From: Cliona cf. orientalis
Taxonomy: Eukaryota; Porifera; Demospongiae; Clionaida; Clionaidae
Length of the DNA: 64,000 bases
NCBI GenBank assembly: GCA_963930775.1
Contig: OZ005703.1
Coordinates: 7,874,001-7,938,000 of the forward strand
Reading direction: 5' to 3'
Part shown: positions 4,984 through 61,088 of the stretch, piece after piece
Position numbering within the stretch: position 1 is the first letter of the stretch
Layout of the letters: each line of letters begins with the position of its first letter
Notes under the pieces: generated by a model
Databases searched by the model: none
Seen by the model: only the letters and a program-made list of their open reading frames with translations
Told to the model about the DNA's origin: nothing
Translations under genes and position numbers: made by a program

Positions 4984-5955
4984 TCAGATGTTCTGGAAGT
5001 TGGCGTAAGTATCAAAAGACTCCAGAAATACCAAAACCGTTTCAAACAATGTCTTGTACTGAGACTGAAGAAATAAAAAGTGGATAATAACTTTAATTAT
5101 TGCAACACGAAATCAATGAGTCTGACTCACCACAGTGGGGACAGCCCCTGGTTTCTGTACTCGCAGAGCCTTGACGACCTGGAACACATCCACCACTCCC
5201 TCTGTCTTGCATCTCTCAATGGTGGTGGCAATGGCACAGAACATTCCACTGCGAGTCACTGTATCACTGCAGTGGACAACAATGGGTTTGTTGCCTGATC
5301 TTATCTGGACCTTGGTCATCTCCTCAATCACATCAGTGACACTCTTCAGGTTGGAGCAATGACCATCAGGCCTCCAGCATGTGATGTGGAACTGAGTAAC
5401 TTTGAGAGATTTCTGAGTCTGAAAACAGAGAGTTGGTAAAGGTCGTCGAATAAAAAAAGCACATTCAACAAAAAGTGTGTGAAATTCTGGCCAAAATTTA
5501 TGCTCAATTACAGCTAATAATGTTCTGTCAAACATACTAATAATTCACATAGCAAGTATGCTCGTTCTTGTTACACCAATTAGTATCTATTACCCAACTA
5601 AGAACCTCGATATCTTAATACTAATAATAATTGCCCGTACCCTGTTATCAGTGATGCTGATGTCTCGGATGATGAACCCCTCTAGCGGTTCCTCTCCCAT
5701 TAGCTCAACGTTGTACTCTCCGTACTGGTAGGAGCCACTGCTGGGCCAATACTGAGCACTGGCCTCCTCCCCTCCCTCTACCAGGTCAGACAGCATCACA
5801 ATCACAGCACTCCCACGATCGTGGATCATCTTCAAGAAGTTTCTGACCGTTGATTTTAGTGGGCCTTGAGCAATGATGAATGCTTTGTGCTTCTTGTATC
5901 CCTGGATATGGGAGAAATAACATGGAGAGCTCTCTCCTCCCCCCTTCTCTCTTAA

Positions 5956-5986
<31 letters not shown>

Positions 5987-7057
5987 TTCTAACACACACA
6001 CACCTCTTCAAAGCATAAGGGTACAGGCCCCAACAATTCAATCCCAGGGGGACAACCCTTACAGGCTTTCCTCAAACTTCTCAACCACACTACTTCCTCT
6101 CAGTTGACCCCCAAACATGTTTATGACATACTCTACTACTCAGCATTGTGTTGAAGCAAACCTCAATACTATACCAGGAAACGCTATTCACACCATAACA
6201 TAATATAGTGGAGCCTTTCTATTAGGAACACCCTCTCTTTATTACAGAGGTGCATGTAGGTTAGTACACCTCTCTACAACAGAGGCGATGCCCTACTTAA
6301 AATATAATTAATTAGAGGGGCGTCCTCTTTTCAGGCCGGGGTTCTTAATAGAATAGAGGCTCTGTATACTAGATCATCCTCACATTGATGTTGACTGCAT
6401 GTATGTAGTCAGGCTGCTCTCCTTTTAGAATAGCCCTCCAACGATCCGCTGAAAAATGAAAAAAACATGTAAAATTTTTTTGCTACGCAGGCAGCTAGTC
6501 CAATCAGCCTAGGGCGATCAGCCTAGGGTAATCAGATCAACGATAAACACACGAGAGAGGTTTGAATAAGCAAGGAGGCGGATTATAATAATTCCACTAC
6601 AGTCAATAAACACAAAACAGTGCTTATAGTAATAAGCAAGCTACGGGTGGTGCACAGTGGAAACGAAAATACACATACATCACATTATCGAAAGTTGAAA
6701 GTACATTCATGGAGTTTTTGTCATTGAAGGGTAAAGCATACAATGCCAGGCATGCATGAAGATCTAGAGTACGTAATTTGTAGTTGGAGTGAATAGGGGA
6801 AGCAGACTCAGTGCCGTGGGATGCCAGTGGCTTACATCACCATAGCATATCTGCAGCTAGCCTACGCTCATGACTATGGGTCAAGGTTCACCCACATGCA
6901 AGCAACTCCTTCCATAAGAAGCATTAATTGCCCCAAGTAACCGCCATTATCGTGAGTGCTGACCTGGCAGATATTTGTTTCCCCTGTTCCTGTCCGAATA
7001 TCGCAGAGCTTGGTTGCATACGACATCATTGGTCTTTGGGGACACCTGCTCCAAGAT
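4984..7057 (-). other. Gene A phosphatase D2 domain (degenerate)
   Basis: Exons 6964-7057, 6384-6448, 5641-5901, 5131-5418 and 4984-5064. The substrate-recognition region (FIIAQGPL) and the signature [10 protein letters not shown], with Cys and Arg, are present. The WPD loop region reads TCWRPDGHC, which shifts or loses the normal W-P-D spacing, and the signature lacks its central Gly. The C-terminal exon ends ANFQNI, followed by TGA. By analogy with other RPTPs this domain is probably regulatory. Confidence 0.8.
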
Positions 7058-10000
7058 CTGTACCATAACATTATTATAAAATAACGTGATTATCTGTGTA
7101 ATTATTGGTGAGCTGCAGTTTCAAAGTTTACACTACAACAAGATAATTACAGAGAGCTAGATAAGCTGAAAGCTGAATGCTCCAAACGTGTAAATGTTGA
7201 CTGTCTGTCGAAAACATTATCATTAATCTCGTAGGATTTCTTTCCAATGGGAAGGGACTGACAAGTGAACATCCAACAGACTTGTGTGCAAATACTCACC
7301 AGCTCATATCCTTCTCATGTGCAATTCCACAGACTATTGTTACATCTATATACCCCTCATACAAGTCACCTATGGCTGCAATACATGCTCATGGGATTTA
7401 TCATTAGCTCAGACACACCTAACAGTAAACCATTTTCAAAATGCCATACATACATACAAAGGTACATACTGACTGCACATTATTATACACTAGTGTCACA
7501 GAAGATTGCATGGTAGACGCCATCACCTACTTAGCTAGCGGCTGGCCATAATTGTATGAACAAGACGCCCTAATTACCACTACATACACACCAAATACAG
7601 CAAAAAATGTCAGAGCTAATGGATCTGGACGAAGATAGCCATTACTTCCAGTATGAGTTATGTACATTGTGCATGTACAATAGCATGTTTACATAAGGAT
7701 ATGCATTGTGTAATCAATGTACATGTACATGTACATGTATGTATAATACATTATGCAGGTACAAGAACATGTTACAACACTACTTACTGGCCATCACCTA
7801 GCAACCAAAAGTTTTTATAGGCAAATTGCCGGCCACCATGGGGGTGTGGATGATCATAGGGTAGGCCAATGATGAGAGGGGGTCATGGGCCAATAAGACA
7901 GTTACAAGACCTTAATTGGGGTGCATTTGACCATGCATCTCATGCACCCCAATTAAGGTCTTGTAACTATAACATGTTAATGTCATGTATAATAACATAC
8001 AGCATGTCATGTACAGAGTCATAATAATATCTGAATCAGTGAGGCTAGTTGATCGAATAGAGAGAGGCCTATGGCAATGATATGTGACTGTTTTACCTGG
8101 AACTGATGTTGGAAGGCATTGAGCTGGTTCAAAGGATCTTTCTTCTTCATCCGGTTCAGCGAGCTCCTCAGGTTGGTGGCTGCGATCTGAGTATCTCCAC
8201 AGGTGACTGACTCTAGGATGGCGTCGTGGATGAACATGAATTGATCCTGTGAGGGGAAACAATAACTAGCAGTCAAATATAATAATATTATTTTTGTTAT
8301 AATAACAATCAATGTGTTAGGTGTTATAGTGGACCCATGCTGTGAATAGCATGTCAACAAGCATGTAGTCAGAGCTGTCCGAAGCATGCGTGTATGTGCA
8401 TGTACATGTACACGCCAACACTATCGACACGAAATGTAGGTGGTTTTTATAACAAGCTAGTCTTTGCAAATACTTGAGCAAGATTGGCTTTGAGATAAAG
8501 GGGACCTAATCCATCTGGTGACATGTGTTAAGCACTTAGGAGGAATCCTAGACAAACAAAGATTATCATTATTTCAGAGGTTTTCCCATAATACTAAACC
8601 AAGGGCTTTGGGGTCTATAAGTCCCGACTAAACAGACAGCTAGCTATAGCCATTAGCTAGCTAGGTGCACATGTACGTACAGTGTAGAGACTGTTATCCC
8701 TACAAGCTCTCTACTTACATCAGTTTGGACCATTTTCATTCTTCTTTGTCTGATCTTGGTGATGGCTCCTGGGATGTCCACCACCTGCTCTTTCTCTATC
8801 TGCTCCAGCACATTGTCTATTGTGATGAGTGTACCTGTGCGACCCACACCAGCACTGAATGTGTACAAAACCAAAAGATTTAATAATATAATATGCTTGA
8901 TATGGTTTAGCTATCTTTCTCACCTGCAGTGTACTACCATTGGTCCCCTGGAGGGGTGGTGCTGAGCCTTCACTCTCCTGTGGAAGGCTAAGATGGATGT
9001 GGCATAGTCTGGTACTCCATGATCAGGCCAGGCAGTGAAGTGGTATTGAGTCACCTTGTGGGAACGCCCTCCAGAACCAAGCTAGGATGTTGAGAAAATA
9101 ACAAAGGTTCACGTTTGCTCTGAAAAGTGATGCTTTAACCAAAATTTACCGAGACAGAGAGAATTCTGATGGTGTAGTCTGCAAAGATCTGCTGGTCTGT
9201 TATGATCACTTGAAAAGGTCCAAAATCTTTCTTCCCACTCTCCGGCCAATACTGCTGACACTTGATACGAGTACCCTCCTTCACGTTGGTCACCATGACA
9301 ATGGTAGGGGGACGCTCCTGCCAAATTAGCCGCCAGAAATCCACCACTGTCTTAGGCAAGGGACCTGTGTATAATAAGCATTATATAGATAATATTAGAT
9401 TTTGCTATGGGAGCGTGAAAATTGATCAGTCAACTAAGATTGAGGTTGAGGTACATTGCAACTAATTATAAGTGATTGTGGAGCTATTCGGACAATCATG
9501 TGATCCCATTAGTAGATTACAAATTTCTACTTTCAAGTGCAGCAGCCATAATTATTATAGTGTGTTAGCATGGAGAGAGAGACTCACCTTGAGTGGCTAT
9601 GTACTTGTTGGGAATAGAATATCCCTGCAGGGAGGGGAGAAAGAGAGAGAGAGAGAGAGAGAGACAGAATTTGAGTGGGTGTAGAGATGCTCTTTTGTTT
9701 ACTGTTAATTAGTTTTTCACAGTTTATACTGGTCTGTTAGTTTAAAATGAACACTACAGAAACCCAATTTTATGATAGTTACATGTTAATTAGCTGAGTG
9801 GGCGTGTCTTAACTAATTACATACATCAATGTAGCAGGCGTTGATGTAGTCCTGGCAATCATCAACTCCTGGCATCAGATCAAGGACAATCCGGTTATCA
9901 TCGTCTGAAACAAAATGAAAGCGCAACAATAATTGTACCATACACACTTGTGCATACGTACATACATACAGACAGACAGTCAATATAACAATAAATAATT

Positions 10001-13000
10001 CCAGTTGACATACTAAACAGTTCCAGTAACGGCAAGTGATGTAGATTCATTGTCAGCGGTGGGGTCCTACATTTCTACACCCCTACACACATACACACAA
10101 CAGATGGACGGATTGCGGACGCCTTCATACCCCAACTGACATTCATACACTGGGCATCAATGAATACCGTATCCTTAATGATATTCATAGCCCACTGATG
10201 GGTGGGGTAGAGTAGAATGATTTATGCCTTTGCTGGCCAAAATAGGGTGTGCACATGTACACAAGTGGTGTGTTTAAGGTAAACCATTATAACAATATGG
10301 ACATGTAATCACAGGCTCCATTGCACGTACACGTACATGTACGTTAATTATTTTTGTACAATCACCTAGTTAATGGAAGGTGTGTGTGTGTAGGGGAGGG
10401 GGTAAGGGGATGTGTGTACGCAAGTGAGAAAGGCTTTTAGTCAAAAATGCAGCTGTTTTGCTAATAAAAAAAAACCCACCCACCCACACGTGCACACACA
10501 CACACTCTCTCAGGGCGGGCGGCCATTGAACAACAGGCTAGTGCAAGAGAAGCACTCTCACAGCTAGTGCAGTATTTATGCATGGTTTACTGGTGTGTAC
10601 ATGTAGCTCAGTATCAAAGGCAGCTAAGTAGTTTTGGTTGATCATGGAGAGATAAGTACACTCGTACTCCTTAGCTTTCAAGGTTTTGCTTATCTACCTA
10701 AGTCCTCTAGTGAGTTGAGGATCCTTCATTGTGTGTCAGATGACCATGGAGTAGGACAGCCTTAGCTAGGCCCTGCTCAGAGTAGGAGCTAGGATGAAAA
10801 TACAATTAAGGTTGAAACTAATTAAGGCAGGGAACAGGCTAGGGGCATGTAAAGGTACACAGAAAGGAAGACAGTGGAGCTAAGAAGCTAAACAGGAGAA
10901 GCTTGGCTAAAACGTAGCTGGGGAGGGAAGCAGGACATACTCAGCTACTACAGTTGAGACCTCAGCTGAGGTTGGTAAGGCTTCAGTACAAGGTGAACAG
11001 CACTCACTGCAGACCACTGTTCAATGGGGAGGGGGGCCCCACAAAAGGTCTACATCCACTTTGAAACCAAGGGTAAGTGCAGCTTGCCCACAATGAGAGA
11101 CTATATACCCTTTAGAGGAACCTTTGAAGGGGAAAAGAGATGAAAACACTAGTTCCTTATTTGGACTATCAGTGTTCAACAAGTTCCCAAATGCACCCAC
11201 TGGGCTGCCACTTGGCCACATCTGTGCAGTCACACACATCCACTCAGGTACACATCTGTTGCAGAGCCTGACCATTTAGGCTTGGGAGACACACAAATAC
11301 AGTTCTCTGACTACCAGTACACTGGGCATGAGTAAACATCAATTGCACAATGACATGTTGTGACTTAAACAAAATTACCTTTTATATACAGTCACATTCA
11401 ACAGCAGTAGCATTGCAGAAAGTATAATAATATGAATGAAGTACTGTCCCAGCTAAATGGGGATACCCCTTTAATTAGGGCACCACACATACAAGGAACA
11501 CAAGAGAAGTTTATAAAACATTATTGTTACCCCGAAATGAAGGCACCTCCCTTATTAATGCCATTGTCAATTCAATTAGTGCTGATGTTCACTTACATAC
11601 AACAATGTTCCCAAATCTGTTGAACATTTTCCGTGGACCATCAGTGGCATAGGTCACATTGTGTCCCTGCTCACCAGAGTCCAGAGCCTAGGGGGAGGGA
11701 GAGGAAAGGAGAGAGAGAGAGAGGGGGGGGGGGGGGTAGGATAGACAAGCAAACACATAACCATTCCATTCTAGGAGTTGAATCATCAAAGTTGAAATGT
11801 CTAGGACAACAAAAACTGTTGATCTAAGCTAAAAGCACTCGTATCTGTGCAGGAAGAGAAACTGTCAACATATGTCCACGTGTTTGATAGATCAACTGAA
11901 GGCCAGCAGACATCAACTACACAATGACTCCAGCAGAGAATTAAGTCTAAGGGGTGAGGGTATTGTAAGGGAGAGTTTTATGGGAAATAGCCAGGCAATG
12001 ATTAATCCACTGAATCAACAGTGCCGTGCATAATATCATCAACACCCAATCTTTGTGTGTTTAAACACAGTGTCTGTCCACTAATAAACAACATTAACAC
12101 AAATCTGTGCACACAACTTCACCAATTTTCCCTCTATTTTAAAGACAATTTTCAACATTTCCATAATAGCCTTGTATGTGTGTGTATTGGTGTGTGTATA
12201 TTTTACATAATATAGATTATGTAGTACTCACCTCAAAAAGATCTTTGAAAGGTTGATTCGAACTGGCATGAAGATTAGCAACGTACTCCCCAAACTCAGG
12301 AATGGGAATGGGACGCGATGAGACGATGTCACCGACGGCAACAGCCGTTGAAGCTCCTCCCTCCTCGTTAACCATCAGCTTGATTTCCCTCTCTTCAGAG
12401 CCGTGTGAGTTGGCAGCCACTGCCTTGTAGACTCCAGAGTGTTTCAGCTCCGTGGAGAGAATGGTCAGGCTCCCGTCTGACTCAATCTCACGGGCATAGT
12501 CTGCTCTGACTGGCTCCCCATCGTGGTACCAGGTCACTGTTGGCTGTGGCTCTCCACTCACCTTGATCCTAAAGTACACTCCCTCTCCCTCAATGACGGT
12601 TGTATCAGAGGGAAACTTCAAGATTTGTGGATCTGAAAGTTTGTACCAGATCAAGCACTTTAAAATTAAGGGTCATACAAGTATCAGCTATTATCAAGGG
12701 CTCATAGACTCTTTGGGGCCTTGCTATTACATTCTATACTGAGCTAATTAGCACTTGAGAAGAACAATAGACAAAGTAGACTAAAAACGGTTAGTGCACC
12801 CCAAGCCCAAATAATCAGCAAAGAGCGATGAAGCTAGTACCGGTAATAGTACGAACGTTGATTGAATCAAACTTACTTGAGTTGTTTCCCCCAAGTCCAG
12901 TGATCTTGTTTCCATTGCGTGTCTTTGAGTAGGCAATGGGCGGAGCCGGGCGAGACCGACCAGAGCTACTGATGTAGGGCTTATCGGAACGACGACGCCT

Positions 13001-16000
13001 GGAGAGAGAAAGTGAGAGAGAGAGACAGAGAAAGAGAGAGAGAAACATTGAAGAATTGTTGGGGGTGGCACATCATAATAGCTATGACTCACCGTAAGAA
13101 GAACACTACAAATATCACTGCGATTATCACTATCACTAACACCAGGACTACAACGATAGCAGCACCAGCCGCCACTCCCGCACCTGGTCCACCACTATCT
13201 TGCTCACCAGGATCTAGGAGAGAGTGAAAAATTAATCCTTCAACTTTTAACTGCCATGGGTAAATTTATATCATTGACTTACTGCCTGAGGGGTTTGGTG
13301 GGCTAGTAGTAGTAGGTAATTCCAACACTGTATGCAAAATTTGTATGATCATGATAATAAGATAATTAATTTAATTTTGCTCACCGATATTAATGCAGGT
13401 AGTCTTGTCAGTTGAGGTAGCATCAGGTACCACACAACAGTATTGCCCCACTGGGGATGTGGCATCGTTCCTGCGATTGAGGCGTACACTACCAAGGCCT
13501 CTGTCACGATAAAAATCATCATTACTTCCATTAACACGAACAAATGATCCATTGGGATAAAACCACTCCCCCAGAGCTCCACCTACACCAGGAGTATCCT
13601 CACCACGGCAACACTGGACTAGGTCAGTGATACAGAGCAGAGCTGCTTCATCTCCCTCTCCAATCTCACCAATCAGAATGTGGCTACCATTATGGTAGGG
13701 CTGACCTCCCAGTGTGAAGAACACTCCTGCATGGAATATGAACTCTAGATGAACATTGCTAGTGTATTATACTGCAATACACAACCACACCAATAGTGAT
13801 TTTTGTGGTATCCATTCCTGAACCAGATCCGGAGAGGTAAGTTGAAGCTGGCAGTGGTCTGACAGTAGTATTGCAGGTATAGTTTCCAGAGTCATTCCTC
13901 CCAAATGAGCTGATCTGGGTAGTGTAGGTGAAGGTTGTGCCCCTCATTGTGTTAGAGAGACTCAGCATAGTTCCATTTGGGTGGGTCAGCTGTGCAGATA
14001 CCATCAGCAGTGAGAGATCAGACTCCATCACTGATGGGCCCAACTCAACAACACAATTCACAGCGACAGTGGAGGTAATATCATTGACTGGGCTAGATGG
14101 AGTGCTTGAGACAGACACAGAGACTGGAGGGGGGACTGAGGGAGGAAGAGAAGATCATCACTTTATGGCTCTACTTTCTCTGGAATCACACTTACTTGTT
14201 AGTCTGATGTCTTGAGGGGGGCTACTGAGTATCATCCCGTCCACAGTGACCTGGCAGGTGTACTGGCCACCATCACTGAGTCTGAGAGAAGAGAAGGAGA
14301 GAGTTGATTCAGTGCTAACTTCAGTGCCATCCTTCCTCCACTGGTACGCACTGACAGTACCGCTAGCTTCACTACTGACTTCACAGGTGAGGGAGTAGCT
14401 CTGCCCTAGACCTGCAGTGCCAGTGATCCGTACATTGACGCCAGCACCTGGATGTCAAAGACCAATCATGAGCAATAGAAAGTAACCACAATACTATAGA
14501 AGAAATTCAGCCAACTCACCAATGTTAGCACAGACTGTCTGTATAACATTTAGGGCATTATGTACTTCACAGCAGAACAGTCCAGTTGGCATCATGACAC
14601 CGGAGTTTCGATTTAGGTTGACTGTTCCATCATCATTGCCTCTGTTTCTGTAGAAATTCACCATAGTTGATGGTCCTGGAACCATCATCCTATCAGGAGT
14701 GTACATGTACCACTCTCCTGTTCGGAAAGCATGCCTGCAACATGGTATTCTGTCACTGATGCACTGGAGCCCATTATTTAGATCAGTATCAGGATTAGTC
14801 TCTCCAATCTCAGTGATCTGGATGGCGCTGTTGTTAGCATAGACCATATCCTTTAGGGAGAGGTAGACACCTGAAGGTGAGTGTGTGCATGCATGTGTGT
14901 ATATTACGTATTTATCACCTAGAAATCTCAGTAGGAAAATTATCAGCTATATGGGATAAGTAAAAGTAGTATTATGGATAACTCAATGATAGGGTAGCCA
15001 GATGATGAAAGGGGTCATAGACAAAAAAATCAGTTGTCATGTAACTACCATGTGCATGTACGTATACTCTTCCCCTCTCCTTATTATTTACTCTTGGTAT
15101 GCACGTATACCTGTATGTATGTAGTAAATTAATGGGTACCTCACCAGTGGTGACTCTGAGTGTTCCAGATTGTGAACGGCTGTTAAAAAGAAATGAATTT
15201 GGAGGTGATGGACTAACAGTAGCTGAGCAGGTGTAGAGTCCAGATTGATCTCTCCCAAATGAGCTGATGGTAGCCATGCTGCTGTAGGTTGATCCAGTCA
15301 TTGATGGAGTAGTGGTAGTCAGTGGACTCCCAGCTGGATCACTCAACTGAATATTCACAGTCACTCCAGGGACATCTATTGCTGGATCCAAGTCAGCCAT
15401 GCAGGTCAGAGTAACACTGGATCCAACAGGACGAACCATCAGTGGGTTGTCTTGATTCGTCGAGATTCTGATCGTTGCTGGCCTAGGTACTAAAGATAAA
15501 ATAATTTTGAGTTTGTAGGAGCTGTAACTATTAAAGAGTTCAAGACCTACAAGTCAGTCGAATACTCAAGGAGTTGGCTGAGGCAGTGGTAATGGGACCA
15601 CTCAGTAGACTGGAGGTGACAGTGGCTTGACAGGTGTAGCTTCCAGCATTAGAAGAGGAGAGAGAAGAGAAGGAGAGAGTAGCCATTGTCTGATCTGAAA
15701 CCACTGCACCATTCTTAAGCCACTGGTAGGTCACCATAGCACCAGCATCAGTGAGCCTCTCAGCTCCAGTGACAGTACAGGTGAGGGAGTACATTGATCC
15801 TACCACTGGAGTAGCTACACTGGATGTAACTCTGACAGTGATGGTTGGGGCTGGAGATGAGAAGACATAATGAGAAAATTCAAGTACCATAGTGTCCCCA
15901 CGTATTTAAAGTTCAAGAAAAACCTACAAGTCGGTTGAACACTCAAGGAGTTGGATGGGGCAGTGGTAATGGGACCACTGAGTAGACTGGAGGTGACAGT

Positions 16001-37627: not shown

Positions 37628-37719
37628 AGCTAAGGTTAAAGTTCAAAGTGCGAATGGGGGATATAGCCACGCCCACAATTGGTAGCATTGCGCATGCGCG
37701 CTTCATCAAACACGTACAC

Positions 37720-46887: not shown

Positions 46888-47273
46888 AATTGTGACCTGC
46901 TCTGAGAAAAGGGACCACTCGGGATATTTCATAAAAATTGAGTTTTTAGCAAGGATTGATCTGTGTGTGCTGAATCCAATGGTGCAAGTTTCATAAAAAT
47001 TTATATTGATCACTAGCCGAGTTATGACCATTTTTATACACGCAGATAGATATAATATTCGATTTTCGGAAAATGCGTATATTTAATTAAATTTTGTATT
47101 AAATTGTATGTGTCCGAGCAATTGCAATTTGCGCCCATAACGATAGTTTACATTATCAACTACATAAACATAGCATATCAATATGAAGCCAAAATCCTAT
47201 AGTTTCTGGTAATAAAAGTAAAAAAATGATATTTTATCCCGAGTGGTCCCTTTTCTCAGAGTGGTTCACAATT
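46888..47273. mobile_element. MITE with GTGGTCCC-type ends
   Basis: ATTGTGACC followed by GAAAAGGGACCACTCGGGAT at the left, and the inverse (ATCCCGAGTGGTCCCTTTTC) at the right. Non-coding, nested in the 5.2-kb element. Confidence 0.8.
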
Positions 47274-48098: not shown

Positions 48099-48329
48099 CA
48101 GTGGCGTGTCCAGAATTTGAAGGAGGGAGGTGCTAAATTTTAGGCCACGGCGCCCAAAATGTTGCTTACAAAGCGAATTTTAAGTTCATTGTTGGTTCTG
48201 GCTACCAGTTGTTGATTATCAGCATAAAGAGTTGCCACTGAGCTACTGATCTGGCTGTTGTGCCAGATCGAGCTGAGGGGGGTGCTCGAGCACCCTGAGC
48301 CCCCCCCCCCCCCCTTGGACACGCCACTG
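48099..48329. mobile_element. hAT-like MITE with 5-bp target duplication
   Basis: Ends CAGTGGCGTGTCC and its inverse, flanked by ATATG (48094-48098 and 48330-48334). Same end type and duplication length as 40077-40397. Confidence 0.85.
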
Positions 48330-49269
48330 ATATGTTTCATACAAGTGTGAACTAGCTATAATAAACTCGAGGACAGGTGTTAGCAACAGCAAGAAAGTAG
48401 ATAGTGATCATTACTCATTAAGTTAATCGATTTTATAAACCAGTGCCCCCTCCTCTGTATGCAACTCTGACCCCTTAGAAACGAGCCAGGCTTCCCCTTC
48501 AGAATACCAGCATGTAAGTTTAGGTAAATAGCTTATAGGCCATATTCACAATAACATTCTATTATCACCACTAGCATATCACAGGGAGAATGGCACTGTT
48601 GGTATGCTAGTAAGGTAGAGCTATCAGGAATTATGGCTGAGGACTCATACCCCCCAGTAATAGAAAATAAACAAGGAGGAGCTAGAGGGTCTGGCTGGTG
48701 TACTACTAAAGTATCCACAAAGAGAGGGAAGGGGTGGTGAATGAAGCTGGCCAACAGCAGCACTTGATCTATACTTTCCTGAGGCTCCAGCTCAATTCAG
48801 GATCATGCAGTGTGTGCAATAGAGTTAGTGATTGTGTATGTGAAGCTCAGGGTGGTCTCCACCACAGATGGAGTGATGCAGCCCTAGGGGTGCACATAAT
48901 TAGTCTGTTTGGGTTAACACCTTCCTTATAAGGAAAGTGTGAATGTCACTATGTACACACCTGTCCACTGCTGCATAAAAGTTACTGCTTTGAGTTTGCA
49001 AAGCTCACTGGCAACCTATATATATTATGCTCCAATCTCATCATACTCTTAAACACATTCCCCAAATTTATATGACATACAATGTACTCAGACAGCATAA
49101 TTCACTCTCAAACTCAGAGCTTCAAAGGTCACACTCTATTGTAATACCCTAATCACATCACACATACCCTAATCACATAAACAACTCATACATATCCTAA
49201 TCACTTCACACATTATCATATCATACCCTAATCACATCACACTCTCAAACAATTAACTAGTATACATAT

Positions 49270-49460
49270 AATAGTTATCTGCCAGTAATTGGGGTGCATG
49301 AGATGCATGGTCGAATGCACCCCAATTACTGGCAGATAACTATTTTGTTGGTAGCTGACCTCTGTTCATCATTGGCCTACTTTATGATGATCCGACCCCT
49401 TCCCATATGCATAGCCGGCAAATTGCCTATAAAAACTTTGGTTGCTAAGCAACTACCAAC
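49270..49460. mobile_element. Inverted copy of the GGGGTGCA palindrome repeat
   Basis: Begins with GTAATTGGGGTGCATGAGAT and its palindromic partner, and ends with a segment containing CCTATAAAAAC and GGTTGCTA. It is the same family as 7790-7975 in opposite orientation. Confidence 0.65.
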
Positions 49461-49539
49461 AAATATCCATACACTCTAATACCTCCAAACTATTCATGAA
49501 CATACCCAATTAAACTATCACTTCATTGACTCATACACA

Positions 49540-49730
49540 TACCGTAAATTGCGAATATTTCGTGTCTAAAATATTTCCTGCGATAAATTTTCACGTTAAA
49601 TAATTTTCGGACAAACGACCCTGTACCACATTATCGTTAATATTGTGTATGTATTTTCGTGCGTTTAATTTTCGGACAAGCCAGGCTATCCGAAAATATT
49701 TTAACAACGAAATATTCGCGATTTACGGTA
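49540..49730. mobile_element. MITE with TACCGTAAATTGCG ends
   Basis: TACCGTAAATTGCGAATATTTCG at the left and its inverse at the right. A relative of the TACCGTATAGCGGG elements. Confidence 0.75.
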
Positions 49731-50199
49731 TATCCCCATTCCATCATTGATCAATATAAAAATAATACAATGTACCCTAATCACCTCAATCGCAATTGAG
49801 TATTACCAATCACATCACACATATACCCTCATAACCCATAATACATACCTAGCCTAATAATCACATCAAATTAATACCCTAATATCACACAGCTCAAACA
49901 CATAATTGCCAAGGTAAATAGTGGCAGAATATTCTCCAATACAGAGATTAGAGTCTCAAATAGGTTCATGTTAGTGTACACAGTGACACTGTGGGCAACA
50001 TGCTCAATATAAAAGAATTATTAAATTCCTATGTCAAGGTCTAACAAGTCAGTTATATGGCAGCCACTGCCTTGTATATATATAACTTATTGTATCCCCT
50101 CACACACTCATTGACAAGTAACATAACACCACTTACCCACTTAGATACATAATACCACATACAATCTCCATTATTATTATTATGGACTATACAGTACAC

Positions 50200-50530
50200 A
50201 GTACGTAGTTGACCATTGCCTAGCAACAGAAGTTCTTATAGGCAAATTACTGGATACCAGAGGGGTATTGGTGATCATAGGGTAGCATAGGTGGCAGAAC
50301 CAGGGGGGCATCAGGGGCATGTGCCCCCCTTGCATGATAGTCCTTTAATAGATCCCTATTGTGGTAGACATGTGACATATCCACTGCGTCTCTCCCCCAA
50401 TCATCCTCTGCCACTGGGTAGGCCAATGATGAGAGGAGTCATGAGAAACTTAACTAGTACGTTGTATGCAAGACCTTACCTGGGGTGTATTCGATCATGC
50501 ATCTTGTGCACCCCAATTAAGGTCTTGTAT
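50200..50530. mobile_element. Direct copy of the GGGGTGCA palindrome repeat with a nested insertion
   Basis: The CCTAGCAACAGAAGT start and the CACCCCAATTAAGGTCTTG end match 7790-7975. About 120 bp (50285-50415), beginning TAGGTGGCAGAACCAGGGGG and ending in CTCTGCCACTGGGTAG, is extra sequence with inverted ends. Confidence 0.55.
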
Positions 50531-50864
50531 AGCTTACAATCCACCAGTCGTGCTGTTCTTGTATTATACTTAATGCATTAATTCTCTTGGCTGTGCCACG
50601 GACACATTCAATTCTTCAATAGTAATCCCCTACCGTTTTTGCAGTGGTTCCCTTCAAGCACAGTATCAATTACCTTATTGTTTCTGCTAATTAAAGGGTA
50701 ATACCCCAGACATCATGCATTTAGCAGCTCCCTATCGACACTACCTCTCAGTGCCCTATGGACACTGTAATGTCAATTAAAAAATGCTTGAGATAATAAT
50801 CATATTATTATGGAATAAATAGCCATCATTGCTAATCTCACCTGTGAGGAAGTATATTATTATA

Positions 50865-51190
50865 ATTAGTCCGGAAGGTATCCAGTGTATTCATTATGAC
50901 GTCTTGGGGGTTCAATGAATTATAAGTTGTCATCAGGGTAAAATTAATGTACCCATAATTAGTCCGGAGGGTACCCAGTGTAGTCATTATGACGTCTTGG
51001 GGGGGGGGGGGGGGGGGGAGAAGTGGCTTTAATTAAGTTGTCATGAGGGTAAATGTATAATATATACCCATAATTAGTCCGGAGGGTACCCAGTGTATTC
51101 ATAATGATGTCTTGAGGGGTGAAGTGGCTTCAATTAAGTTGTCATCAGGGTAAGTGTGCCCATAAATTAGTCTTGAGGGTGTTTAGGTGG
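50865..51190. repeat. Tandem array at the right end of the 5.2-kb element
   Basis: Four to five units around TAATTAGTCCGGAGGGTACC and TTATGACGTCTTGGGG, with a poly-G run at 51000-51018. It probably expanded from the element's subterminal region. Confidence 0.8.
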
Positions 51191-51839
51191 TTTTAATTAT
51201 TGTCATGGGGGGAAACGTGATAGTGTTCTTCCATGGGGGTGTATCTTTATTAACTGGAATAGCCCAATGTTCACATACACAGTCACATTGACCCCAGCAG
51301 CATTGGCTACCTCACAGCGAAAACGACCTCTCTCTTGTGGATTACCTCGACGATTTAAACGTACTACTCTAGTAAGCCTATCTCTGGAGAAGAAGTTAGT
51401 GGGATCGATAGCAAACTCCTGTGTGAAACTCCCAACTTGAGTCCCACCAGGGCGGTACCAGTGTCCCTGACCTACACCGTCTGCATCTGAATTTCTGCAA
51501 CAACCGCTTCTGTCAGTGTTGCAATATAAACCAGTACCAATATCGTTTGCGCTGACATAGCCATCATCGGGGATTGTCTCGCTATTGAGCGAGAGGTGCA
51601 CTCCTGAGCGTAGCAAACACAGCTAACGTTGGATTAGATCATTATCAGAGCTCAATTACTCACCTGAAGCCTGGCTGTCCACTGACAACTGAATTAATGG
51701 TGATAGTCACAAACAGCAGCGTAGTAAGCAAGAGCGAAAGCTGAAAACATCGAGTCGCCATAGCTTCAACTTTTGTTTGGTGCGGTAAATGAACATCTTC
51801 ATGTGTCGATTATTACCAACTGCATGTGTGAATCGGTTC

Positions 51840-52062: not shown

Positions 52063-55000
52063 TTAAACTGTTGTTTTTCCACTGTTAGTGTTATCATCTG
52101 CTGTGGCATACACTGGAGCCTCTGGTTTACTAACAGGGAACTCGTAGGGAGCTGGACATCCTGTTGGTTCATAGTTCCCTCCACCCCCTCCCCCACCACG
52201 TCCAGATCTAGCCAGCTTGTCTGGATCCTCATACTCTCCACCTGCATCTCCCAAACCCCCCAGCTTCACCTGACCGTAGGCCATGTTTGCTGACACAGCA
52301 AAATCACTCTTGCCTGACTTCCTCTGCCTGTGGAGTACAGTGAAATGTTCACCGTGTAGCATTGAAAAAAACAAACAAAACAACAACTACAAGCAACATC
52401 TGTTATAGCAACTATAGCTGTTTTTGTTTTAGTATAATAGCTACATGCATGTACCTACCAGCAGATTACTGTTACAATGACAGCAGCCACTGCAGCAATG
52501 ATTCCCTCCACAAGAATAAGTCCACCAACAGCAATACCAACATCACTGGAGCATGTGCACGATGATTCTGATGACATATCTTCAACTAACAGTCATTACA
52601 AAGATATCATGTCAATAATAATTGTTAGGTTGTGGTTTACCTGCTAATATCACAGTAGCTGTGATCAGGTCACTAGGCAACTGAGTTGACTCAGAGCGGA
52701 TAGATACAGACCCCACTTGACTTGATTCAATAAAACTTAGCACTATGCTGGTGACATACAAAGGAATAAGGAGATTTTGTCCATTGCCGTAGTAGATTCT
52801 GTATCCAGTGATGGTGTTAGCTCCATCAGATGGAGGACTCCAGCTGACCTCCACTGGGGCAGAGGAACCAGATTGAGTGGCTCGGACATTAAGAGGGGGA
52901 GAAGAAACTGAAAAATATTTAAGCTACGTAAAAGGTATTACAGCTACTAGCTAGAATCTACCTTGCACAATAAAGTTAGCTGAGCCTAGATCTTGATCGC
53001 TGGTTCCTCTTATTGTACATGTGTATGTTCCTGGAGTCCTACCACTGACCATAAGGACACTACTGTAAGAGAGGGTTGAGGCATCAGTCTCAACTAGAGG
53101 ATTGGTGTTGTGCAACAAGAAACCATCTCTTGTCCAAACCACACTACTGGCTTGTCCACCAGTGGAGTTACAAGTGAGGGAGAAGCTGATATTCATAGAC
53201 TCTTTGTCTATGAGCTGAAAGTTAACTTGAGTCATTATACCTGCATGCGTGGAAAATTTATAAAAATTAGAATAGTCACAGCATGTGACTTACGAGCAGT
53301 GAGTTTAATAGTGTTGCTGAGCACTACAGATCCAGAGAGATAAGTTGAAGTTGGTTGTGGTCCGACACTAGCCGTGCAGGTATAGTTTCCAGAGTCACTC
53401 CTCCCAAATGTTTCAAACTGCCTTGTGTAGGTGAAGGTTGTGCCAGACACTGTCGGTCCAGTTAGAATCAATGGAGTTCCATCCCTGGACAGCTGTGTGT
53501 CCACCATCAGCAGTGAGAGATCAGACTCCATCACTGATGGGCCCAACTCAACCACACAATTCACAGCAACAGTGGAGGTAATGTCATTGACTGGGCTAGA
53601 TGGAGTACTGGCGACAGACACAGAGAGTGGAGGAGGGACTGAGGGAACAAAAGAGACTATAACGAAAATTAAAATGATATCACTAACTTGTTAGTCTGAT
53701 GTCTTGAGGGGGACTATTGACCATCATCCCATCCACAGAGACCTGACAGGTGTACTGGCCAGCATCAGACAGAGTAAGAGGAGAGAAGGAGAGAGTTGGT
53801 CCAGTACTAACTGCAGCACCATCCTTCCTCCATTGGTATGTACTGACAGGACCACTGGCTCCAGTGACTTCACAGGTGAGGGAGTAGCTCTGCCCTAGAG
53901 CTGGAGTGGCCACACTACCAGTGATCTGTACACTGATACTGGCATCTGGGCATCATAGAATGAAAGGAGATCAATTGATAATAAATTCATTTCCAACTCA
54001 CTGATGTTAGCACAGACCCTCCGCATAGCACCAGTAGCATCAGGTACTTCACAACAGAATAGTCCAGTTGGCATCATGACATTAGTATTGAGGCGGTTCA
54101 GGTTGACTGTTCCATCATCTCCTCTGTTTCGATAAAATGTTATAGCCACACCCACCGGTGGAACAGTTGCCCCATTAGGAAAGTACCACTCTCCAGCTCT
54201 GACTGCTGCACAGCATGGCATCCTGTCAGTGATGCACTGGAGTCCGGTGTTGGATATAGAGTTAGTCTCTCCAATTTCAGCAATGGGAATGGCGTCATAG
54301 TTATTATAGACTGTCCTCCTCAGAGAGAGGTAGACATCTGTGTGTGTAGCTATGTGTTTGTGTGTGTGCATTGCTCCTGAATCATTCAGAGGCAAATCAA
54401 GTCATCTCACCAGTGGTGACTCTGAGTGTTTCAGTCTGTGAACCACCGCCAGAAAGAAATGAATTTGGAGGTGATGGACTAACAGTAGCAGAGCAGGTGT
54501 AGAGTCCAGATTGATCTCTTCCAAATGAGCTGATGGTAGCCATGCTGCTGTAGGTGGATCCAGACACTGATGGAGTAGTGGCAGTCAGTGGACTCCCAGC
54601 TGGATCTCTCAACTCAATATTCACAGTCACTCCAGGGACACTTATTACTGGATCAAAGTCAGCCATGCAGGTCAGAGTAACAGTGGATCCAACTGGACGA
54701 ACCATGAGTGGGTTAGTTTGACTACTGATAATCCTGATTGCTGTTGGCCTAGGTACTAAAGAAAATTTGATTAAGGATCTATATTATTACCTTTAGTATT
54801 AAAGACCTACAAGTCAGTCTAACACTCTCAGAGTTGGATGGGGCAGTGGTAATGGGATCACTGAGTAGACTGGAGGTGACAGTGGCTTGGCAGGTATAGC
54901 TTCCAGCATCAGAGAAGGTGAGAGGAGAGAAGGAGAGAGTAGCCATTGTGAGGTCTGATATCACTGCACCATTCTTAAGCCACTGGTATGTCACCATAGC

Positions 55001-56082
55001 ACCAGCATCAGTGAGCCCCCCAGCTCCAGTGACAGTGCAGGTGAGGGAGTACATTGATCCCACCATTGGAGTAGCTACACTGGATGCAACACTGACAGTG
55101 ATGGTCGGGTCTGGATATGAAAGATACAAGAACATCAATAAACCTCAAGTTATAATCACTTTACTCACTCTGCACATTGATGGTCCTGGATGTTGAGTCC
55201 ACAGCACTTCCCAGTGTAGCTCTACATGTGTATGTCCCAGCATGAGAGGCTGACAGTGGGTTAAATGTCAGTGTGCTCATGCTATCAGTTGTCACTACAG
55301 TAACTCCATCTGCATTAGTATTAACCATGTTGTTCATAGGACCCATCAGCCAGGTTATCATTAGCTGATCATTTGACCCAGTCACAGTAACAGTACATAT
55401 CAGCCTGAAGGTCTCCCCAGCAGTGGCAGTACCAGAAGCAGTGATGGAGACTCCAGTGATAGTTGGTGTAGCCTCACTGGTGGTAGTCATAGGAGGCTCT
55501 GAAGGTGGAGGTGGGTCCACTAGAATGGAGTATAATATAGTATACGTAGCTATCACAATCCATAGTTTATACTCACCAACGTTCACAGACAGATTCACCA
55601 GGTCACCATCAGCATTGGGTATCTCACAGCGAAAACGACCTCTCTCTGTTGGATTACCTCGACGATTCAAACGTACTATTTTAGCATCTCTATTTCTGTA
55701 AAAGAAGTCTCCAGTACGGCCTCCTTCAATATCTACAGCAGTTTCATTAGAGAAATACCACTTTCCCTGACCACCACCATTTTGATTGTCCGTTGCTCTG
55801 CAACAATCACTATTTTCAGTGATGCAGAGAAGACCACCACCCGTAGTGGTCATATCATTACCACCTTCGCCAATGTCACTGGCGAAGACATTGCTTTCAT
55901 TGGAGATTGTCTGTCCGTTGAGCGAGAGGGTCACTGAGTGTGGCAAAACACAGCTAAACTTCTATCAGATCACTCTCAGAGATCAACCACTCACCTCCAG
56001 TCTGTCCACTGACAACTGAAATGATGGCAGTCATAAGCAACAGCGAGAGCGAAAACTGCGAACATATGCATCGATTCGCCAT
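52063..56082 (-). CDS. Gene F: Ig/FN3 receptor with tyrosine-rich tail (intact)
   Basis: Exons: signal peptide 55995-56082 (MANRCICSQF); Ig-V-like a 55577-55933; Ig 55169-55519 with a short Thr/Pro stretch; Ig 54811-55110; Ig 54411-54755; Ig-V-like b 54002-54337; short Ig 53688-53945; Ig 53294-53638; Ig 52962-53240; FN3 52641-52907; transmembrane 52459-52579; tail 52063-52327. The domain order is the same as in B and I see no frame break. Unlike B, the helix has an acidic residue in the middle (GGLILVEGIIAAVAAVIV). The tail keeps all five tyrosine motifs and ends GKTTV. The conserved upstream ATG (MKIFTY) is out of frame here, supporting MANRC as the start. Likely a surface recognition receptor (inference). 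Confidence 0.85.
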
Positions 56083-56187: not shown

Positions 56188-57403
56188 AACAACAGGCTGA
56201 TGTGTTTCATAGCCCAGCCAAGACAAACAATAATGTTTAGATATTATCTGTGCAAACACGAACCTGAAAGTATATTATTATAGTTCTGTAGTAAATGCAA
56301 TAGTGGTATTATTGTCATGCAAGCAGACACTATAATAATAATATAAATTTCAAGTTGACATTAAACTGTTATCTTTCCACTGTTAGTGTTATCTGCTGTA
56401 GCGTACACTGGAGCCTCTGGTTTACTAACAGGGAACTCATAGGGAGCTGGACATCCTGTTGGTTCATAGTTCCCTCCACCTCCTCCCCCACCCCGTCCAG
56501 ACCTAGCCAGCTTGTCTGGATCCTCATACTCTCCATCTGCATCTCCCAAACCCCCCAGATTCACCTGACCGTAGGCCATGTTTGCTGACACAGCAAAATC
56601 ACTCTTGCTTGACTTCCTTCGCCTATGGAGTACAATGAAATGTTCACTGTGTTCAAACTTGTAGTATTAAAAAAAACAACAAAAAACAACATCTATAGCT
56701 ATAGCTGTTTTTGTTTTTTGTACACTAGCTACATGTACCTACCAGCAGATCACTGTGACAATGATAGCAGCCAGTGCAGCAATGATTCCCTCCACAAGAA
56801 TAAGCCCACCAACAGCAATACCAACATCACTGGAGCATGTGCGCGATGATTCTGATGACACTAATTGTTCACCTATTAGTATTATTATCATAATAATAAT
56901 ATTATATGCAATGATAACATTGTCATTGTGATCACCTTAAGTAGGTCTTACCTGCCATCATCACAGAAGCTGTGATCAGTTCACTAGGCAACTGAGTTGA
57001 CTCAGAGCGGATAGACACTGATCTCACTTGACTTGAATTTAGCACTATTCTAGTGACGTACCAAGGAACAAGAAGATTTTGTTGATTCCCATAGAAGATT
57101 CTATGTCCAGTGATGGTGTTAACTCCATCAGATGGGGGACTCCAGCTGACCTCCACTGGGGCAGAGGAACCAGACTGGGTGGCTACAACATCCACTGGGG
57201 AAGCAGAAGCTGGAGAAAAAAGAATCGGATTAAAGCTACATTGTATTTACCAAGCAGCTGGCTAGAATTTACCTTGCACAATAAAGTTAGCAGAGCCTAA
57301 ATCTTGATCACTGGTCCCTCTTATTGTGCATGTGTATGTTCCTGGAGTCCTGCCACTGACCATAAGGACACTGCTGTAAGAGAGGGTCGAGGTATCAGTC
57401 TCT

Positions 57404-57748
57404 ACATAATAGTTAGACACTGTTTAGGAGGTTTCTACGTGATTTAGAAGACCGAAGGGCTCTAGGTAGAATCCCGAGCGAAGCGAGGGTTCTACTGAGC
57501 CCTGAGGTCTTCTAAATCACGTAGAAACCGACTAAGCAGCGTCTAACATGTTTAGATCCTAGCAACAATGCCCAAAAGCTAGACACATAAACTGCTGCCT
57601 AGCAACAACCCTAACCATGGGCAAGAAAATTTACATGATTTTCTACAGAGCTTTACATGATTTTCTACAGAGCCTACATGATTTTCTATGAAGGATAGAT
57701 ACTTCAGTTTAACCAATCAGATCACAGTATTTGTTACAAGTAGGATCT
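57404..57748. mobile_element. MITE inserted in an Ig exon of gene G
   Basis: Paralogues read CAGTCTCTACTAGAGG without a break here. The insert has inverted segments GGTTTCTACGTGATTTAGAA (about 57430) and its complement (about 57510), and GTTAGACAC/GTCTAAC near its left half. The boundary bases are approximate. Confidence 0.8.
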
Positions 57749-59097
57749 AATAGAGGATTGGTGTTATGCAACAAGAAACCATCTCTAGTCCAGACCACAC
57801 TACTAGCTTGTCCACCAGTGGAGTTACAAGTGAGAGAGAAGCTGATATTCATAGACTCTTTGTCTATGAGTTGAAAGTTAACTTGAACCATTATACCTGC
57901 AGAGATGTGGAATACTATATAATTAAATTTTAAACAAGCTAATGAATATTGACAACGTACTGTTACTTACTTGCAATAATTTTAATAGCATTGCTGAACA
58001 CTCCAGATCCAGATAGGTAAGTTGCAGTTGGTTGTGGACTGACAGTAGCTGTGCAAGTATAATTGCCAGAGTCACTCCTCCCAAATGAGTTGATCTGGGT
58101 AGTGTAGGTGAAAGTTGTGCCTCTCATTGTGTTAGAGAGACTCAACATAGTTCCATTTGGGTGGGTCAGCTGTGCAGACACCATCAGCAGTGAGAGATCA
58201 GACTCCATCACTGATGGGCCCAACTCAACAACACAATTCACAGTGACAGAGGATGCAACGATGATAGGGCTAGATGGAGTACTTGTGACAGACACAGAGA
58301 CTGTGGAGGGGACTGAGGGAGGAAGAGAAGAGCATCACTTTATGGCTCTACTTTCTCTGGAATCACACTAACTTGTTAGTCTGATATCTTGAGGGGGGCT
58401 ACTGAACATCATCCCATCCGCAGAGACCTGGCAGGTGTACTGACCAGCATCAGACAGAGTGAGATAAGAGAAGGAGAGAGTCTGTCCTGTTTCAGAGAGC
58501 ACAGTGCCACCTCTCCTCCATTGGTATGCACTGATAGGACTGCTAGCTCCACTGACTTCACAGGTGAGAGAGTAGCTCTGTCCTAGAACCGCAGTACCAG
58601 TGATCCGTACATTGACGCCAGCAGCTGGATGTCAAAGATCAATCATGAGCAATAGAAAGAAGTAATCTATAGAAGAAATTCAGCCAACTCACCAATGTTA
58701 GCACAGACTGTCTGCATAATATCTCGGGCATTAGGTACTTCACAGCAGAACAGTCCAGTTGGCATCATGACACCAGGGTTTCGATTTAGGTTGACTGTTC
58801 CATCATCACTGCCTCTGTTTCTGTAGAAACTCACAGTAGTTGATGGACCTGGTACCATTGTCCTATCAGGAGTGTACATGTACCACTCTCCTGTTCGGAA
58901 AACATGCCTGCAACATGGCATTCTGTCACTGATGCACTGGAGTCCATTGTTTGAATTTGGAGGTGGTGGCATAGCAGTGTTAGTCTCCCCAATCTCAGTG
59001 ATCTGGATGGCACTGTTGTTAGCATAGACCACTCCCCTTAGAGAGAGGTAGACACCTGAAGGTGTGTGTGTGTAAGTATGTGTGTATACATGATAAT

Positions 59098-59545
59098 TAC
59101 CGTATGGCAGGTATAATTTTCGTGGGTGCTAATTTTTGTGGAAAGTCCAAAAAGGCCCTCAAAATTAATTTTCGTGGTTTTAAATTTCATGACAGCAACC
59201 AGTCCAGGGGCGTGGTACTGCTGCACAAGCGATGATGTAATCGATACACTCGTTCGATCTCGCTCACAATCTTCTTTGTTACTAAGCCATACCTACAGAG
59301 ACTTGGACAAATAGCATGAGATAGAAGAATATGTCGAAGACGCTATCAGCTGGATGACAGTGGCTACTGTTGCTTGCTAACACTGGGAAGTGTTGGCCAG
59401 GCTGCCACAATGTTTGTGGCCACGCCCATCATCATGGACTCAACCGTAGGCATTAATTTTCGTGGGTGGGAAAATTTCGTGACTGCCAAGTCAACCACGA
59501 AATGACGAAAATTAGCACCTCATGAAAATTACCCGCTATACAGTA
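59098..59545. mobile_element. Inverted-repeat MITE in a gene G intron
   Basis: Ends TACCGTATGGCAGGTATAAT and the inverse of TACTGTATAGCGGGTAAT, with ATTTTCGTGG-type segments inside. Same class as 24185-24635. Confidence 0.75.
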
Positions 59546-61088
59546 TCATCTAGCAATCACAGTTTTTTAGTAGGAAAACTATCCAACTATGGGATAAGTA
59601 AGTACATGCATGTAGGATAAGTGAAGTGGACTACTAGCATGCCTTCAAAAGCTTGTTCATGCAAGATGATACTAGTAATATACACCAGCAGTAAAGGCTT
59701 TTATGGCGTATAGGACTGAGGTTATTCATCATCCTACTATAATCATTGCCAAAATGCATCACATAGGCAAAGATGATGATCATAGAAAAGCCAGAATTAT
59801 GAAAGGAGGTCAGGGACAGTTATCATATAACTACCATGTGCATGCACGTACCTGTATGCATATGTGTGTATGTAGCTAGTAATCAAATGGCTACAGCCTC
59901 ACCAGTGGTGATTCGGAGTGTTTCAGATCGTGAACTGTTGCCAGAAAGGAATGAATTTGGAGGTGATGGACTAACAGTAGCAGAGCAGGTGTAGACTCCA
60001 GATTGATCTCTCCCAAATGAGCTGATGGTAGCCGTGCTGCTGTAGGTGGATCCAGTCACTGATGGAGTAGTGGTACCCAGTGGACTCCCAGCTGGATCTC
60101 TCAGCTGAATATTCACAGTCACTGGGACATCTATTGCTGGGTCCAAGTCAGCCGTGCAGATCAGAGTAACAGTCAATCCAACTGGACGAACCATGAGTGG
60201 GTCAAGTTGATTCGTTGAGATCCTGATCACTGCTGGCCTAGGTACTAAGGACAAAATTTGAGTTTTAAGGAGCTGCAACTATTAAATAGGTAATAATTAT
60301 TGAAGACCTACAAGTCAGTCGGACACTCAAGGAGTTGGATGGGGCAGTGGTAATGGGATCACTGAGTAGACTAGAGGTGACAGTAGCTCGACAGGTGTAG
60401 CTTCCAGCATCAGAGATAGCGAGAGGAGAGAAGGAGAGAGTAGCCATTGTCTGACTTGATACCACTGCACCATTCTTAAGCCACTGGTAGGTCACCACAG
60501 CACCGGCATCAGTGAGCCCCTCAGCTCCAGTGACAGTACAGGTGAGGGAGTACATTGATCCTGCCATTGGAGTAGCTACACTGGATGTAACTCCGACAGT
60601 GATGGTTGGGGCTGGAGATGAGAAGACACAAGAACATCAATAAAACCTCAAGTTATAATCACTTCACTCACTCTGCACAGTGATGGTCCTGGCTTCTGAG
60701 TCCATAGCACTGCCCAGTGTAGCTCTACATGTGTATGTCCCAGCATGAGAGGCTGCCAGTGGGTCAAATGTCAGTGTGCTCATGCTACCAGTTGTCACTA
60801 CTCCAGATGTGATCATGTTGTCCATAGGACCCATCAGCCAGGTGATGGTTGGCAGATCAGCTGACCCAGTCACAGTAACAGTACACTCCAGACTGTAGCT
60901 CTCCCCAGCAGTGGCAGTACCAGAAGAAATGATGGAGACATCAGTGATAGTTACCTGAGCTGTGAAGGAGCAGTTGACTCTAAGTTCAAGAACAATGAAT
61001 GACATCTTTTAATACCTGTCGCAGTCTGTGCACAGATCACTGAAATGAAAAATACGGCAGAAATCCACGAGGTCATAGGCTTGGCCAT

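Follow-up and report, generated by a model that had tools for sequence, protein, structure and literature searches.

A sponge receptor region in which one family of immunoglobulin ectodomains occurs on receptor phosphatases and on receptors with tyrosine-rich tails

Seven tandem genes carry related ectodomains and two kinds of endodomain

We analyzed a window of 64,000 nucleotides from the genome of the sponge Cliona cf. orientalis (positions C15:7874001-7938000, where C15 is contig OZ005703.1), which contains seven receptor genes, A to G, arrayed head to tail on the minus strand, as a first-pass annotation of this DNA had described. The genome searched comprises 216.8 Mb, and this one genome provides all locus data below. 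Genes A, B, and F are intact, gene C has a stop inside its tail, and genes D, E, and G are damaged (Table 1). The predicted order of domains in A is signal peptide-IgV1-Ig1-Ig2 (three copies)-Ig3-IgV2-Ig4-Ig5-IgV3-linker-transmembrane (TM) segment-cytosolic I-set-protein tyrosine phosphatase (PTP) D1-PTP D2; its ectodomain comprises three IgV-like domains (IgV denotes such V-like domains throughout) and seven other immunoglobulin (Ig) domains. Gene B reads signal peptide-IgV1-Ig1-Ig2-Ig3-IgV2-Ig4-Ig5-IgP-FN3-TM-tail, and an exon for this tail was found in all six of the genes B to G. The annotation had assigned tails with five conserved tyrosines to all six genes; the exon is indeed present in each, although the tail of C is interrupted (TGA at 22482-22484) and only B and F are intact.

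The other features said to be shared by these genes were recovered as well. Signal peptides were identified by pattern in A, B, and D, by reading frames in E and F, and also in C, while none was seen in the reading frames of 61-63 kb for gene G. In the models of A, B, and F, all ectodomain introns are in phase 1, giving Ig exons with the same borders, and the TM exon is followed by an intron in phase 2, so the frame would be kept on exchange of an exon. The 530 bp located 5′ of the A start match the upstream DNA of B, C, D, E, and F at 68-81% over 54-272 bp. Altogether, the gene models support the view that one ectodomain family is fused to two kinds of endodomain, a PTP in A or a five-tyrosine tail in B to G.

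The stop codon predicted for A at position 4984 closes its spliced model. The PTP region of A is recognized by Pfam Y_phosphatase in two stretches (E value of 3.4e-140), and the TM segment is followed by D1 with its WPD and HCxxGxxR motifs and then by D2, i.e., the layout of a receptor PTP (RPTP) with tandem domains. The D1 motifs are WPDHGVP and [11 protein letters not shown]; as the annotation had held, this domain looks catalytically active by its motifs. D2 is degenerate. The closest solved relative of D1 is PTPRS (2fh7, 466 bits), and the LAR-family PTPs, PTPRS and PTPRF, are nearest. In the exon that encodes the I-set domain of A, no TM segment lies between this domain and the PTP juxtamembrane segment, which would place an Ig domain on the cytosolic side of the membrane. 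Beside the window, 15 further RPTP genes share the I-set/PTP half of A.

Several repeats and neighbors were noted around A. One Ig exon is tandemly triplicated at 15545-16613, with a 371-bp period and 94% match, and is single copy in B, E, F, and G; a minisatellite with periods of 64/199 bp lies 3′ of A at 2951-3875; and D2-like PTP exons of another receptor phosphatase, which runs on from C15:7.867 Mb, occupy 494-1498 on the plus strand and converge on A from the left. Within gene D, positions 27000-39000 hold a mobile-element-like insertion and minisatellites, and an integrase-like open frame, identified by eye, is found in this insertion at 35858-36478 on the minus strand. Exon profiles and reading frames revealed no TM exon in D, whose membrane-proximal exons are gone, and no signal peptide or IgV1 in G. 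In gene E, the reading frame is broken in both Ig3 and IgP, and IgV1 lies ~5 kb from Ig1 with no family exon in this interval.

Table 1. Genes and features of the window and of the surrounding region (window positions unless marked C15)
Feature	Position	Strand	Description
Gene A	4984..17520	-	Spliced model of 27 exons, 1868 aa; introns all GT-AG, phases consistent, single terminal stop
A ectodomain exons, common to B-G	13385..17367	-	Phase-1 exons; nearest neighbor shifts by exon among B, G, and E
A TM exon	13093..13213	-	From the A model
A cytosolic I-set and PTP juxtamembrane segment	12232..12632	-	Single exon; I-set at residues 1185-1271
A PTP D1 exons	8097..11687	-	[17 protein letters not shown] intron-split
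A PTP D2 exons	4984..7057	-	WPD motif lost, [10 protein letters not shown] retained
Gene B	18052..22057	-	12 exons, 1087 aa, intact model
B tail exon	18052..18319	-	Five tyrosines: MAYGQV, EYEDP, NYEPT, PYEFP, VYATA
Gene C	22400..26165	-	Outer limits approximate; shorter ectodomain IgV1-Ig1-Ig3-IgV3-IgP-FN3
Gene D	26423..42011	-	Signal peptide, IgV1, Ig1 (two pieces), Ig3, and IgV3, separated from the tail exon by ~12 kb of unrelated sequence
Gene E	42258..51760	-	Outer limits approximate; carries exon set of the A and B ectodomains
Gene F	52063..56082	-	12 exons, 1099 aa, intact, B-like order
Gene G	56361..60959	-	Outer limits approximate; IgP exon split, 5′ end gone
Gene H	C15:7.940-7.950 Mb		RPTP, three IgV matches
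13 RPTPs	C15:7.954-8.053 Mb	+	One IgV each, plus two or three other Ig matches
One RPTP	C15:8.054-8.059 Mb	-	One IgV, plus two or three other Ig matches
Six non-PTP receptors	C15:8059350-8090000		Similar short IgV ectodomains
Three RPTPs of another PTP subfamily	C15:8.238-8.268 Mb (30 kb)		IgV ectodomains

Sponge receptor phosphatases share an Ig domain between the TM segment and the PTP

A protein database was searched with the TM-I-set-D1 region of A, and the best 120 of 698 relatives were evaluated; the query included the I-set domain, which favors relatives that have one. The closest named relatives were sponge proteins, in good agreement with the sponge locus proposed by the annotation. 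The sponge group comprises 17 relatives, 16 named as sponge and one unnamed (P0028), a few of the other relatives being unnamed too. All 17 have a predicted TM segment before the I-set motif, and an Ig domain lies between the TM segment and the PTP in 15 of 15 evaluable sponge relatives versus 0 of 100 evaluable others (2 of 17 and 3 of 103, respectively, could not be evaluated). A profile of the CC-type IgV domains of the window matched 13 of the 17 sponge relatives versus 1 of the 103 others, a camel protein with many Ig domains (P0029). Gene A follows the sponge layout, with IgV domains outside and the I-set domain between the TM segment and D1. In a single NCBI-annotated protein of Halichondria (P0015), two IgV domains around Sushi domains are followed by a TM segment, an I-set domain, and both PTPs. 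Since IgV, TM, and PTP occur together in other sponge proteins, the fusion of IgV with a PTP is not specific to the assembly analyzed here.

These data bear on whether A is one gene. It is conceivable, albeit highly improbable, that an Ig receptor whose 3′ end is lost or separate adjoins an unrelated RPTP; this would fit the intron of ~1.7 kb inside D1, but all 27 exons connect in consistent phase, with the TM and cytosolic exons linking the two parts, and the same order of IgV, TM, I-set, and PTP is present in Halichondria, Geodia, Amphimedon, and 14 neighboring short RPTPs. As far as the sequence can tell, the ectodomain exons of A are predicted to be spliced to its PTP exons.

Tail-type relatives were sought with B. 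Residues 450-1087 gave 12 matches, none named as sponge, and residues 850-1087 gave none, ~8000 candidates sharing the most words being scored in each search. In the structure library, no Foldseek match under an E value of 0.001 was found. Multiple sponge PTPs have been reported (Ono et al. 1999, as referenced in PMC5336234). Among the open-access papers listed, none describes the present arrangement to judge from titles and abstract starts, and none was on point for cytosolic Ig domains in RPTPs or for sponge RPTPs with Ig-like domains.

Ectodomain exons are mosaic across the two classes

When the segment of A from 14.2 to 4.9 kb was analyzed by blastn, its last ectodomain exons were 74-89% identical to B-G, and its PTP half (3′ of 12.64 kb) matched the neighboring RPTP cluster, with an identity that reaches 96% in a match of 657 bp. 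The match pattern breaks from ~13.36 to 12.64 kb, with B-G best before and the RPTP cluster best after the break; the TM exon and its surroundings (~13330-12640) were unmatched in either group by blastn, except for a weak linker match in D to A 13351-13273 (76%).

The nearest neighbor of A changes from exon to exon (similarity values in parentheses): B for IgV1 (89.0), Ig1 (96.7), Ig2 (~95), and Ig4 (89.3), B and C for Ig3 (90.6), E for Ig5 (89.3) and IgV3 (88.4), and G for IgV2 (89.9, with B as runner-up at 70.8; 90.5 and 77.8 on re-alignment). Re-alignment of four exon classes left these neighbors unchanged. Informative sites were clustered in four of four comparisons, the observed value being reached by 0, 0, 1, and 0 of 2000 shuffles. 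The D2 exons of A are similarly uneven: identity to 13 RPTP paralogues is 98.6-99.6% in exon 5131-5418 but drops to 67-73% in the preceding exon (5641-5901), for which 8 RPTPs were compared. The near-identity of the former points to either local gene conversion or unusual constraint. The divergence of the latter indicates that the phosphatase half of A is an old lineage, and we therefore rejected the possibility that A is a recent fusion.

Trees of the IgV domains were also examined. In a tree of 20 short-type domains, from which 7991682, 8067915, and 8081362 (split or partial) were omitted, the PTP/tail label requires 5 changes (shuffled mean of 4.7, i.e., mixing at chance level), at least 3 of which are forced by the 3 well-supported branches. 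In a tree of 10 IgV2 domains, A groups with G (91/92), with no branch at the strict mark. Altogether, the mosaic nearest neighbors, the clustered sites, and the uneven D2 exons are best explained by gene conversion or unequal crossing-over, by which ectodomain exons would have been exchanged across the PTP and tail classes.

Such a footprint resembles that of vertebrate paired receptors kept alike by gene conversion, as described for the SIGLEC11/16 ectodomains in the abstract of PMC5701461, and of CEACAM. By analogy, the genes could encode receptors for microbes or symbionts, in which the same ligand would activate via the tails and restrain via the RPTP, with microbes driving diversification; we regard this as unlikely.

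Endodomains evolve slowly and ectodomains fast

We then compared mean NG86 ratios of nonsynonymous to synonymous substitution (dN/dS) between exon classes, using 10-14 RPTPs for the classes of the RPTP cluster and 5 of 6 tails (C, with its stop, was omitted); split or absent exons removed D from Ig1, E from Ig3, and D, E, and G from IgP. Among the endodomain classes, the ratios were 0.23 for the tail, 0.22 for the I-set domain, 0.12 for the D1 exon, and 0.27 for the homogenized D2 exon, and the endodomains are under purifying selection. The remaining ratios were 0.29 for FN3, 0.28 for IgP, 0.48 for both Ig4 and Ig5, 0.83 for Ig2, and 0.88 for Ig3. Ig1 reached 1.69, with dN-dS above zero in 99% of 200 bootstraps, as compared to 1.5% for IgV1. 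The pattern is one of fast ectodomains and slow endodomains and is not proof of positive selection.

These data speak to a rival explanation, namely that adhesion or matrix receptors used in tissue building underwent an ordinary expansion in this lineage, with the shared exons as by-products of tandem duplication and no pairing. The kinship of D1 with the LAR-family PTPs PTPRS and PTPRF agrees with it, as do the variable ectodomains of sponge RPTPs with the same endodomain, e.g., Sushi in Halichondria and FN3 in Geodia and Amphimedon, and the many PTP and tyrosine-kinase matches elsewhere in the genome among the matches listed. However, the ectodomains evolve faster than the endodomains, and exchange has crossed the PTP/tail boundary more than once. 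We hold this explanation to be possible, although the less probable one.

Tyrosine tails recur in the genome, often near IgV domains

The first-pass annotation had seen the logic of paired immune receptors in this locus, an idea that stands with respect to one ectodomain family on two kinds of endodomain but not with respect to the classical tail motifs. The B tail contains one YxxV and two YxxP motifs, and MAYGQV fits only a relaxed pattern of the immunoreceptor tyrosine-based inhibitory motif (ITIM). Of four cytosolic stretches scanned, one, from a tail located beyond the window at C15:8.086 Mb, has a single ITIM-like match and no immunoreceptor tyrosine-based activation motif (ITAM). YEDP and YEFP fit the YxxP class bound by SH2 domains of the Crk/Nck type.

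Across the genome, the B-type tail is matched 35 times, with the matches spread over seven contigs. Based on the best 150 IgV matches, at least 23 of these 35 tails, and at least 19 of the 29 outside the window, are preceded by an IgV match of the same strand at a distance of up to 8 kb (chance of ~0.003 per position); 12 of the 35 have none among the matches listed. We rejected the possibility that the B tail is the juxtamembrane part of a receptor kinase: the tail closes with a stop codon, and a tyrosine-kinase search, with 119 of 2511 candidates scored, found none in the window or in C15:7.84-8.29 Mb among the matches listed. Tyrosine-kinase-like matches are grouped at C15:6.72-7.06 Mb of the same contig, at a distance of ~0.8 Mb.

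The receptor region extends beyond the window

To describe the surroundings, 264 kb (C15:7,844,001-8,108,000) were read with profiles built from the window exons. The I-set/juxtamembrane exon is present in 16 copies at 192 bits or more, including that of A, across C15:7.886-8.057 Mb. The IgV domain of one short RPTP is split in two, at C15:7.992 Mb. Five of the six non-PTP genes share a conserved tail with the motifs VYEDPD and AYVTTT, which in four genes closes with YYEL, and the sixth has a different tyrosine-rich tail. With genes of the VYEDPD type lying beside the RPTP cluster, the alternative of PTP or tail occurs at least two times in one region. Further along, four of the IgV domains of the RPTPs at 8.238-8.268 Mb are 68-75% identical to IgV2 of B. 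The possibility that A is unique as an IgV-PTP gene was rejected, as H and these three genes have the same join. The window is thus one piece of a larger receptor region, which, C15 being 8.35 Mb long, lies near the end of the contig. Two pairs of short RPTPs have identical or nearly identical IgV domains ~34 kb apart (C15:7998854/8033246 and 8006431/8040777), representing either recent segmental duplication or an assembly repeat.

A large cluster with many copies, decayed copies, mosaic exons, and an Ig1 class with dN above dS would also be expected of an allorecognition complex, in which tail receptors and RPTPs would tell self from other individuals through homophilic IgV binding, as Alr proteins of the cnidarian Hydractinia bind homophilically. 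The Alr genes are likewise clustered with many pseudogene-like models, according to passages of PMC11067881, but work on sponges points to aggregation factors (Grice et al. 2017, as cited in PMC12065747), and we consider an allorecognition role quite unlikely.

Discussion

The reading that we modestly favor is that this is a sponge receptor region in which IgV/Ig ectodomains of one family are borne by both RPTPs and docking-tail receptors, with ectodomain exons exchanged between them and signaling outputs that may be opposed. The observation of the first-pass annotation is partly confirmed and its interpretation, of a recognition locus in which the RPTP tunes its neighbors, partly supported. 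Under the proposed mechanism, tandem duplication and gene conversion would keep swapping ectodomain exons between the classes, with the endodomains staying conserved. The ectodomains may bind a ligand on a neighboring cell or matrix, possibly a matching ectodomain; on contact, a cytosolic kinase would phosphorylate the tail receptors, which would then recruit SH2 adaptors through YxxP motifs of the Crk/Nck type. RPTPs like A would engage a similar ligand, take off phosphate in their vicinity, and so restrain the tail receptors. The response would depend on the balance, and the cytosolic Ig domain of A, given its predicted topology, may act as a docking or dimerization module for D1.

Several observations weigh against this reading. 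Four of the seven window genes are damaged, and a pattern scan of the B tail found neither a strict ITIM ([SIVLT]xYxx[ILV]) nor an ITAM (paired Yxx[LI]). The phosphotyrosine loop of D1 reads NRF in A and NRY in PTPRS, so that the activity of D1 is not certain, and A would be spliced into one transcript in the animal only if its model holds. The signs of exchange are not uniform either: the ectodomain of A also matches the RPTP cluster, if more weakly (67-80%), bins of 170 nucleotides with introns included put G and B equally close to A near Ig4, and most branches of the IgV trees are weak, with good support for 3 of 16 and 0 of 7. The dN/dS ratio exceeds 1 only in Ig1, 1 of 11 window classes and uncorrected for class number, and the IgV means lie below 1 (0.72 for IgV1, 0.37 for IgV2, 0.53 for IgV3, and 0.50 for the short type). 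Finally, roles in adhesion or growth control would leave a similar footprint.

The region suggests that sponges reached paired-receptor logic with a phosphatase as one partner, and it points to a sponge RPTP layout with a cytosolic Ig domain, which the other RPTPs examined do not have. For the genes behind sponge cell recognition, it offers a concrete, testable candidate with named exons. More speculatively, and improbably at present, the distal megabase could be a histocompatibility-like complex built on phosphatase/substrate pairing, in which conversion would keep interchangeable IgV ectodomains ligand-matched and each cell would have both a docking-tail receptor and an RPTP for the same ligand. 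The region would then represent an independently evolved paired-receptor system in which the enzyme itself replaces the ITIM, and the cytosolic Ig domain, which among the RPTPs examined was seen in those of sponges alone, would steer the phosphatase.

Among known systems, the Ig adhesion molecules of Geodia cydonium are also sponge surface proteins with Ig domains, a likeness by description only. This sponge has tyrosine-kinase and SAM receptors as well. Of the adhesion molecules, GSMS is named in the review PMC11999971. The RPTPs of Halichondria panicea, Geodia barretti, and Amphimedon queenslandica share IgV, TM, cytosolic I-set, and D1-D2 with A; however, they are 46-55% identical over the query region, their ectodomains are otherwise Sushi or FN3, and the B queries of the protein database found no tail-type partner with the same ectodomain in them. 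LAR or type IIa RPTPs are defined by an ectodomain of I-set Ig and FN3 domains with no cytosolic Ig. PTPRS, PTPRF, and PTPRD resemble A in having tandem D1-D2 domains and an Ig ectodomain and are its closest solved PTPs, but A has no FN3 match, and its Ig domain between the TM segment and D1 sets it apart from the 100 evaluable other relatives, mostly named LAR type.

The likeness to the Alr genes of Hydractinia is one of layout, not of sequence comparison. These genes encode single-pass receptors of the Ig superfamily and lie in clusters in which many copies are broken (as presented in PMC11067881), and their tails carry signaling motifs (as presented in PMC12065747), so that clustering and decayed copies are shared; unlike the present region, PTP-bearing members go unmentioned in the portions of both sources seen. 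Vertebrate paired receptors (SIGLEC11/16, CEACAM, CD300, and KIR/LILR) are likewise Ig receptors with common ectodomains and differing signaling parts. Their inhibitory partners recruit SHP phosphatases via ITIMs, whereas here one partner is itself a phosphatase and the B tail departs from the strict ITIM and ITAM patterns. In this one genome, ectodomains of the same family carry different signaling parts, are closely linked, and appear to be kept alike by gene conversion; to judge from its genes, the region would work like a paired-receptor system, with outputs that may be opposite.

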